DNA from: a virus
Direction: 5' to 3' (one strand)
DNA length: 36,015 nucleotides
IMG/VR virus record: IMGVR_UViG_3300049483_000263
Coordinates: 1 to 36,015 of that record
A program made the position numbers and the translations under genes. The notes under the pieces are model-generated. The model did no database searches. It was not told where the DNA came from and saw only the letters and a list, made by a program, of their open reading frames with translations. Of this stretch, positions 32,037 to 32,545 are shown piece after piece; the stretch's first letter is position 1, and every line of letters begins with the position of its first letter.

Positions 32037-32270
32037 TTAGCCGGAGCCGGAGCCGGAGCCGGAGCCGGAGCCGGAGCCGGAGCCGTAGCCAGAGCCGTAG
32101 CCTGAGCCGTCGCCGGAGCCGGAGCCGTAGCCGTCGCCGGAGCCGGAGCCGGAGCCGGAGCCGGAGCCGGAGCCGGAGCCGGAGCCGGAGCCGTAGCCGT
32201 AGCCGTAGCCGTAGCCAGAGCCGTAGCCGTAGCCGTCGCTGGAGCTAGCTAAGCCATTTATTGTTCCCAT
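32037..32270 (-). CDS. Gly-Ser-Tyr low-complexity repeat protein
   Basis: A 77-residue protein. After MGTINGLASSSD it consists almost wholly of alternating glycine with Ser, Tyr or Asp (GYGYGSGYG..., GSGSGSGSG..., GDGYGSGSGDG) up to the stop. It is read from a hexanucleotide GGCTCC repeat. Its start overlaps the end of the DUF6948-like gene by 13 bases, so the two are coupled. I recall Gly-rich repeat ORFs of this kind in other phages near DUF6948-like genes, but cannot verify that here. Tyr in a Gly/Ser background resembles phase-separating low-complexity proteins. Function unknown. Confidence 0.6.
   Translation of the reverse strand: MGTINGLASSSDGYGYGSGYGYGYGYGSGSGSGSGSGSGSGSGSGDGYGSGSGDGSGYGSGYGSGSGSGSGSGSGSG
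32041..32236. repeat. Hexanucleotide GGAGCC microsatellite (about 33 units)
   Basis: The plus strand repeats GGAGCC with single-base variants GTAGCC, GTCGCC and AGAGCC. On the minus strand these are Gly-Ser, Gly-Tyr, Gly-Asp and Gly-Ser codon pairs. The 6-bp unit means slippage changes protein length without changing frame. The variants cluster into blocks, suggesting past expansions of short segments. Confidence 0.95.
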
Positions 32271-32545
32271 ACTGGCACCGCTTCAATAGATGCTTTTGCT
32301 TTGTCTGTGATAGGTATTATTTCTATTATTTCGGTTAGCAAAACTTCATTAACGGCAGCTGGGAATTTGCATTTTTTAGGCTCGCTGGTGCCATCAGTTG
32401 CTAATTGCGATAATGATGCAGCACCAGACCAGTACCAGATGCGGCGAGCATTTGTTAAAATTCCTTCTTTGCCATTGCGTTCTTTTAGCGTTCCCGCAAA
32501 AACACCTGCTGAATAAGTTCTTACCATGCAATATTTTCCGATCAT
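32258..32545 (-). CDS. DUF6948-like protein
   Basis: A 95-residue protein (MIGKYCMVRTYSAGVFAGTLKERNGKEGILTNARRIWYWSGAASLSQLATDGTSEPKKCKFPAAVNEVLLTEIIEIIPITDKAKASIEAVPVW). The motifs VRTYSAGVF.GTL, ARRIWYWSGAASLSQLA and the end VPVW are those of a phage and plasmid family that I recall as DUF6948, with no known function. AGGAG precedes the start. A strong promoter lies about 90-120 bases upstream, and the gene is first in the minus operon. Confidence 0.75.
   Translation of the reverse strand: MIGKYCMVRTYSAGVFAGTLKERNGKEGILTNARRIWYWSGAASLSQLATDGTSEPKKCKFPAAVNEVLLTEIIEIIPITDKAKASIEAVPVWEQ

Follow-up and report, generated by a model that had tools for sequence, protein, structure and literature searches.

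Gene order, reading frame and composition in relatives indicate that a gene for a DUF6948 protein and an overlapping gene for a Gly-X repeat protein form a conserved phage two-gene unit, present in phages of very many hosts. The window in which we studied the pair covers the full length, 36,015 bases, of a viral sequence record (IMGVR_UViG_3300049483_000263). It encodes a primase, terminase, portal, protease, major head protein and integrase, together with a CI-like repressor and a divergent Cro/YdaS gene, and because of this gene content it is a temperate tailed phage.

32258..32545, minus strand: gene 1, DUF6948 protein, 95 aa (open reading frame; Pfam PF22253)
32037..32270, minus strand: gene 2, Gly-X protein, 77 aa, X being Ser, Tyr or Asp, on a hexamer array (open reading frame, array, relatives)
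32258..32270, minus strand: 13-nt overlap of gene 1 and gene 2, with the gene 2 ATG spanning two gene 1 codons, GTA-TGG (Val-Trp)
33584..34102, minus strand: CI-like repressor, candidate regulator of both promoters discussed below (HTH_19 3.8e-5 and Phage_CI_repr 3.4e-4, both below the gathering score; PHROG repressor families)
34065..34370, plus strand: Cro/YdaS-like regulator of the opposite early operon (P22_Cro 3.5e-16, YdaS_toxin 8.9e-16)

A first-pass annotation of this DNA had described two overlapping genes, one DUF6948-like and the other a pure G-S/Y/D repeat. Both reading frames are present on the minus strand at the coordinates above, and gene 1 matches PF22253 over residues 3-87 with 112.7 bits (E 9.2e-33) against a curated cut-off of 27 bits, which places it in the DUF6948 family. 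In gene 2 a short non-repeat start precedes the Gly-X tract with its Ser, Tyr and Asp. The DNA beneath gene 2 is a 6-bp array of 32.8 copies with an 89% match. Pfam TrAA12 matches to the repeat protein were below cut-off and were taken as compositional. Downstream and in the same direction lie two further overlapping open reading frames (31449-31730 and 31727-32017, minus strand; 93 and 96 aa), for which Pfam and PHROGs gave no family above cut-off.

The two genes are linked in both directions

Scanning IMG/VR with the window protein returned 80 DUF6948 loci, and a profile scan found at least 587, of which 80 were kept; the family is also present on 27 contigs of GTDB genomes, nearly all from MAGs, and in 16 named phage records. 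Our forward sample comprised 157 distinct DUF6948 genes, 153 with readable downstream DNA, and a Gly-X array lies just downstream in 147 of these 153. In the remaining six the array is degenerate (L060, L167), is fused (L079), is cut off where the sequence ends inside an apparent array start (L111) or, only in L041 and L155, is replaced by nothing at all. For the reverse direction we used a DNA pattern for Tyr-Ser-Tyr-Asp units, built without reference to DUF6948, which selects Tyr/Ser/Asp arrays and returned at least 120 array loci. Among the listed arrays with at least 330 nt of upstream sequence, an iterative HMM search placed a DUF6948 relative within 450 nt upstream on the same strand in 88 of 94, and slightly further upstream in three more listed arrays. 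This upstream slot accounts for 203 of the 7,429 ORF segments searched around the listed arrays and received 90 of the 94 HMM hits. The divergent partners also match PF22253, some of them below cut-off. By these counts the adjacency of DUF6948 and Gly-X is near-obligate in both directions, and the functional pair suggested in the first-pass annotation is strongly supported. The survey of DUF6948 neighbours for Gly-rich frames that it called for finds recurrent linkage, and the repeat frame, rather than being broken by stops in relatives, is open in nearly all of them.

Contigs end within 400 nt after DUF6948 in 33 of 156 loci, compared with 6 at a similar distance before it. The arrays therefore interrupt assembly, and the number of Gly-X genes is probably underestimated. 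Two or more tandem Gly-X tracts or reading frames stand behind one DUF6948-like gene in L018, L044, L058, L059, L072, L074, L200 and L225. In the Iodobacter phage PhiPLPE (L085, EU876853) a Gly-X reading frame at about 1176-1412 lies unannotated between phiPLPE_84 (DUF6948) and phiPLPE_83.

The repeat begins at a start codon embedded in DUF6948

A pure hexamer array is naturally open in several frames, so that an open frame alone proves nothing, and we therefore compared relatives. A Trp near the C-terminal end of DUF6948 is invariant in the alignments made, and any preceding codon that ends in A (NNA-TGG) yields an ATG in the -1 frame. In 124 of 154 genes the codon before the Trp has A as its last base, compared with 42.4 predicted from codon choice for those residues in the rest of these genes (z 15.4; the start-codon counts treat related phages as independent, so that this value overstates the number of events). 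Val before the Trp is encoded by GTA in 65 of 82 cases, compared with 329 of 1366 elsewhere in the genes. The array is in frame with the embedded start in 127 of 136 genes when the base before TGG is A or G and in 2 of 10 when it is C or T, and at least 127 arrays begin in frame at an ATG or GTG spanning the codon before the invariant Trp. At the other end, 96 of the 123 complete arrays meet a stop codon no more than two residues after their last unit.

In 20 of 120 listed arrays found by the pattern the frame continues for more than 40 residues beyond the array, mostly into one of two recurring C-terminal domains, for neither of which was there a Pfam model above cut-off. The first follows an N-terminal Gly-X tract and has the form IAFWRS..GLPSNGG ... 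LHAT ... W.GDRWW.VAL (L230:7801-8142, L201:392-739, L245, L286, L236). The second, in frame after Gly-X, reads VYMIDDTPTII ... GFILQNDLTLTPC.IVK ... FAHGET ... WHH.LTGSC.MGR (L293:163-624, L306:1756-2232, L079, L082, L083). The embedded start, the frame, the stop near the array end and the in-frame fusions to globular domains, together with the exchange of Tyr for Phe and the avoidance of Pro described below, show by comparison that the Gly-X arrays are translated as protein, apparently coupled to DUF6948.

The same observations bear on the proposal that the repeat is neutral slippage DNA, open by chance beside a conserved gene. Hexamer arrays do tend to be open by nature, and slippage shapes them through block duplications and frozen wobble bases. 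Nevertheless the place, frame, start, stop and composition of the array, including its aromatic share, recur in about 150 distinct loci over many host phyla, and the link to DUF6948 is found again from the array side in 88 of the 94 listed. As a full account, the neutral frame is refuted by the start-codon and reverse-linkage statistics, and also by frame, stop and composition, and we give it practically no credence.

Composition is kept while order and length vary

Tyr and Phe make up a median of 31% of the X residues and Asp/Glu about 24%. Six loci have almost no Tyr, and four of these carry 23-39% Phe instead; of the others one has 32% Cys plus Trp, and L094 mixes Phe and His. Ser-to-Pro and Tyr-to-His are both T-to-C changes at the same codon position, yet the former is the rarer of the two (14 Pro variants against 1523 Ser, 55 His variants against 1216 Tyr; P 5e-9), and by this measure Pro is avoided in the arrays. 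The order of units is quite different in five of the six pairs that have non-identical arrays and 90-98.5% identical DUF6948, and array length differs in six of seven pairs in this identity range; both order and length change even where gene 1 is 95-98.5% identical. Block duplications are visible in the arrays and, with the frozen wobble bases, indicate that slippage shapes them. Composition is thus kept, and is single across many host phyla, while order and length are free, a pattern that presumably marks the chain as disordered and functional. In prokaryotic low-complexity regions aromatic residues are reported to be under-represented (PMC6821194), which makes the Gly-X tracts unusual. In composition they have aromatic stickers spaced by Gly/Ser, conserved at the level of residue class. 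The likeness to condensate-forming sequences drawn in the first-pass annotation is reasonable on that basis, with about a third of X aromatic and Tyr replaceable by Phe.

A 2026 preprint describes phage VIPR loci, which combine a small RNA-binding protein with GGY/NN repeat guide RNAs (PMC13142463), and we therefore tested explicitly a reading in which the array acts as RNA, either as a VIPR-like guide or as a DUF6948 ligand scaffold, with coding secondary. Beyond the precedent of such repeats in phages, wobble bases are 94-95% uniform within arrays while codon positions 1 and 2 of X vary, and arrays are hypervariable between close relatives; we keep the reading as a rival because of these two features. 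Inside a given array the Gly wobble base shows 94% uniformity, which fits the copying of units by slippage. The base that is commonest varies from phage to phage (C in 100 loci, T in 23, G in 14 and A in 3), so that 17 of 140 loci have the G or A that counts against a guide of this kind. The period is 6 rather than 5, and most units have TA, TC or GA as their variable pair, a repertoire too narrow for natural targets. Searching 5.3 Mb (counting both strands) for gapped targets with skips of 0-3 gave results equal to letter-shuffled controls. RNA structure in the array was rejected, its predicted fold being ordinary (z +0.8) and Rfam giving no match in 30300-34400 of the window. The conserved start and stop codons, the fusions and the constraints at the amino-acid level likewise argue against a primary role as RNA, which we consider highly improbable.

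DUF6948 is predicted to have an Sm-like fold

The AlphaFold model of the window DUF6948 (mean pLDDT 97.9) has five strands, with a helical insert between strands 3 and 4 and a C-terminal helix. Every one of the best 50 PDB rows returned by Foldseek was an Sm/LSm chain or complex, with E values no lower than 1.1e-3 and a TM by target of at most 0.72. The top 50 from VIA-align were likewise only Sm/LSm, the best being 6ppq_A with a Z of 7.9 (rmsd 2.0 over 62 residues), although a structural Z below 8 can reflect merely a common small-barrel arrangement. The divergent group A4, 26% identical to group A2 (hhalign E 6e-15), was modelled separately (pLDDT 91.9), and its top 50 structural matches were again Sm/LSm. 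This group also matches 3BY7, a solved environmental protein titled Sm/LSm-like, which we take to be of putative cyanophage origin (Z 7.2, rmsd 3.1 over 72 residues). An Sm-like fold for DUF6948 is well supported by these models.

No homology of DUF6948 to LSm proteins emerged at the sequence level. A Pfam search gave no match of gene 1 to PF01423 (Sm/LSm), and hhalign of DUF6948 against a four-sequence archaeal LSm alignment gave a probability under 1%, which amounts to no sequence relation. A weak SM-ATX match, below cut-off, was obtained for L195 (E 0.006). The Sm1/Sm2 RNA-contact motifs (the D-x-x-M-N loop and the R-G loop), whose D, N and RG positions are evident in the archaeal LSm alignment, are not conserved in DUF6948, where the invariant positions lie elsewhere. 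DUF6948 has conserved Arg and Trp residues.

The operon is probably early and repressor-controlled

32638..32666, minus strand: operon promoter TTGACA-17-TATATT, 11 of 12 sigma-70 consensus matches, the best in 30300-34400
32643..32655: operator-like repeat AAACAATAAGTTT, AAACN5GTTT, between -35 and -10
32665..32677: operator-like repeat AAACTACTTGTTT, AAACN5GTTT, over -35 and 22 bp from the first
34054..34088: operator-like pair (34054 and 34076, 22 bp apart) on the cro-side promoter, whose promoter-like site is at 34065-34093
32591..32608, minus strand: leader hairpin resembling a terminator, downstream of the operon promoter and ahead of gene 1

The strong promoter assigned to the operon in the earlier description is borne out. 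The paired repeats are 13 bp long, and the window has six copies of the motif AAACN5GTTT where 0.98 would be expected. At both promoters one repeat covers the -35 element and its partner falls in the spacer between -35 and -10, the two arrangements being mirror images, and we infer that the same repressor controls both. Because the paired repeats sit on the operon promoter as they do on the cro promoter, the operon is probably early and repressor-controlled, a finding that rests on the window's phage. It would then resemble lambda's leftward early operon in being off in the lysogen and switched on at infection or induction. The motif is absent from about 250 nt upstream of DUF6948 in relatives, as expected if they have other repressors; operators of this sequence shared across relatives were thus rejected, and the motif is specific to the window phage. 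The hairpin in the leader, on which the first-pass annotation was silent, is strong and has a T run, and lying before gene 1 it may mean that expression needs read-through or antitermination, or that a short leader RNA is made. A conserved leader hairpin or attenuator was rejected, as 4 of 154 relatives have one and a count on the reverse strand gives 3.

Elsewhere the neighbours of DUF6948 are regulators, integrases, HNH nucleases and recombination proteins. The pair adjoins RecE/Bet in PhiPLPE, and Erf with a single-strand binding protein in Pectobacterium phage Taid, a neighbourhood that fits early genes. It is conceivable that the pair acts on the host or on a rival phage, through takeover, anti-defence or superinfection exclusion, since small early phage genes often act in this way and the hypervariability of the arrays could reflect an arms race. 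On the other hand, a PADLOC search of nine proteins, the products of both genes among them, gave no match to its defence families up to an E of 1, and a single composition over many host phyla suits a general role more than one tied to a particular host. The promoter carries repressor-type sites, which predict repression in the lysogen and so argue against a defence expressed there. The first-pass suggestion of a prophage-encoded defence is not supported, with no PADLOC or above-cut-off NCBIfam match and the pair lying beside recombination genes in PhiPLPE and Taid, and we regard a role directed at host or rival as improbable.

A proposed ring with a tail supplied in trans

The explanation we favour, held tentatively and at slightly less than even confidence, is that the pair builds RNA-protein assemblies from an Sm-like ring and a low-complexity tail that a second gene provides in trans. 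Gene 1 would make a small protein with the predicted Sm fold, and gene 2 a separate, presumably disordered Gly-X polymer, with about one third of X aromatic and about one quarter acidic. DUF6948 would assemble into a ring through its barrel and bind RNA or another ligand via the conserved NARRIWYW / SAGVF surface. The polymer would play in trans the part of the low-complexity tail that Hfq, Lsm4 and Ataxin-2 carry in cis, and may gather rings into RNA-protein assemblies, or gate RNA binding by the ring, early in infection. This mechanism draws support from the linkage, the embedded start, the stop near the array end, the fusions, the replacement of Tyr by Phe, the avoidance of Pro, the freedom of order and length, the Sm/LSm matches with the weak SM-ATX one, the operators and the early neighbourhood. 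Against it count the structural Z below 8, the hhalign result for LSm and the different placing of the conserved residues, and the frozen wobble bases leave room for a role at the RNA level. Direct contact of Gly-X with DUF6948 is plausible, since most of the polymers are acidic and aromatic and DUF6948 has its conserved Arg and Trp.

The same contact could serve a different purpose. Gly-X may be an acidic, aromatic mimic of nucleic acid that sits on the binding surface of DUF6948, or on that of a host Sm protein (such as Hfq), and regulates it without condensates. With about 24% Asp/Glu, about a third of X aromatic and conserved Arg and Trp in the partner, the residues suit such a role, and an acidic disordered tail is established as a regulator of Hfq. 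The window's own polymer, however, has only 6% Asp, so that strong acidity would not be required, and we consider mimicry unlikely.

Extending the ring-and-tail mechanism, the pair could represent an undescribed two-part RNA-protein assembly system common to phages of bacteria, and perhaps archaea, in which an Sm-like ring and a hypervariable sticker-and-spacer polymer in trans together make a dedicated assembly, expressed early, that corresponds to the LSm/Ataxin-2 granules of eukaryotes; this we put forward as a rather doubtful generalisation. If the ring-and-tail mechanism is right, phages have genes for Sm-like RNA-protein assemblies whose low-complexity component is made separately and evolves fast, and the arrays are a natural experiment in which selection keeps the aromatic share and ignores order and length. 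The unit is present in hundreds of uncultivated phages, annotated just as 'DUF' and 'hypothetical', with the second gene sometimes unannotated. As small named phages carry the pair, it is directly testable.

Comparison with known systems

The pair appears to be undescribed. PF22253 is a family without assigned function, and we found no description of its Sm-like fold or Gly-X partner. In a full-text search with partial coverage of journals and preprints, DUF6948 was named in no paper found, and the sole paper found with the repeat strings concerns another subject, enzyme electron transfer. Among solved structures 3BY7 resembles the divergent DUF6948 group, at the Z of 7.2 given above.

VIPR is alike in being a minimal phage-encoded locus that joins a small protein to a GG-containing tandem repeat with a variable pair. 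Its protein, which we compared by description, is of the RRM/RAMP type and about 20 kDa, whereas the one here has 95 aa and a predicted Sm-like fold. The VIPR repeat is a YNNGG pentamer with hypervariable NN, acting as a non-coding guide, whereas the array here has a period of 6, an NN that is mostly TA, TC or GA, and is translated.

The Sm, LSm and Hfq proteins with tails (the Hfq C-terminal region, Lsm4, Ataxin-2) are alike in the predicted fold of gene 1 and in having a low-complexity chain within the unit; the C-terminal region of Hfq forms amyloid-like filaments (PMC10590398). They differ in that DUF6948 has no detectable sequence relation to them and that the chain here is a separate, translationally coupled and hypervariable gene. 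If the proposed mechanism is true, the pair is a new variant of these Sm-plus-low-complexity systems.
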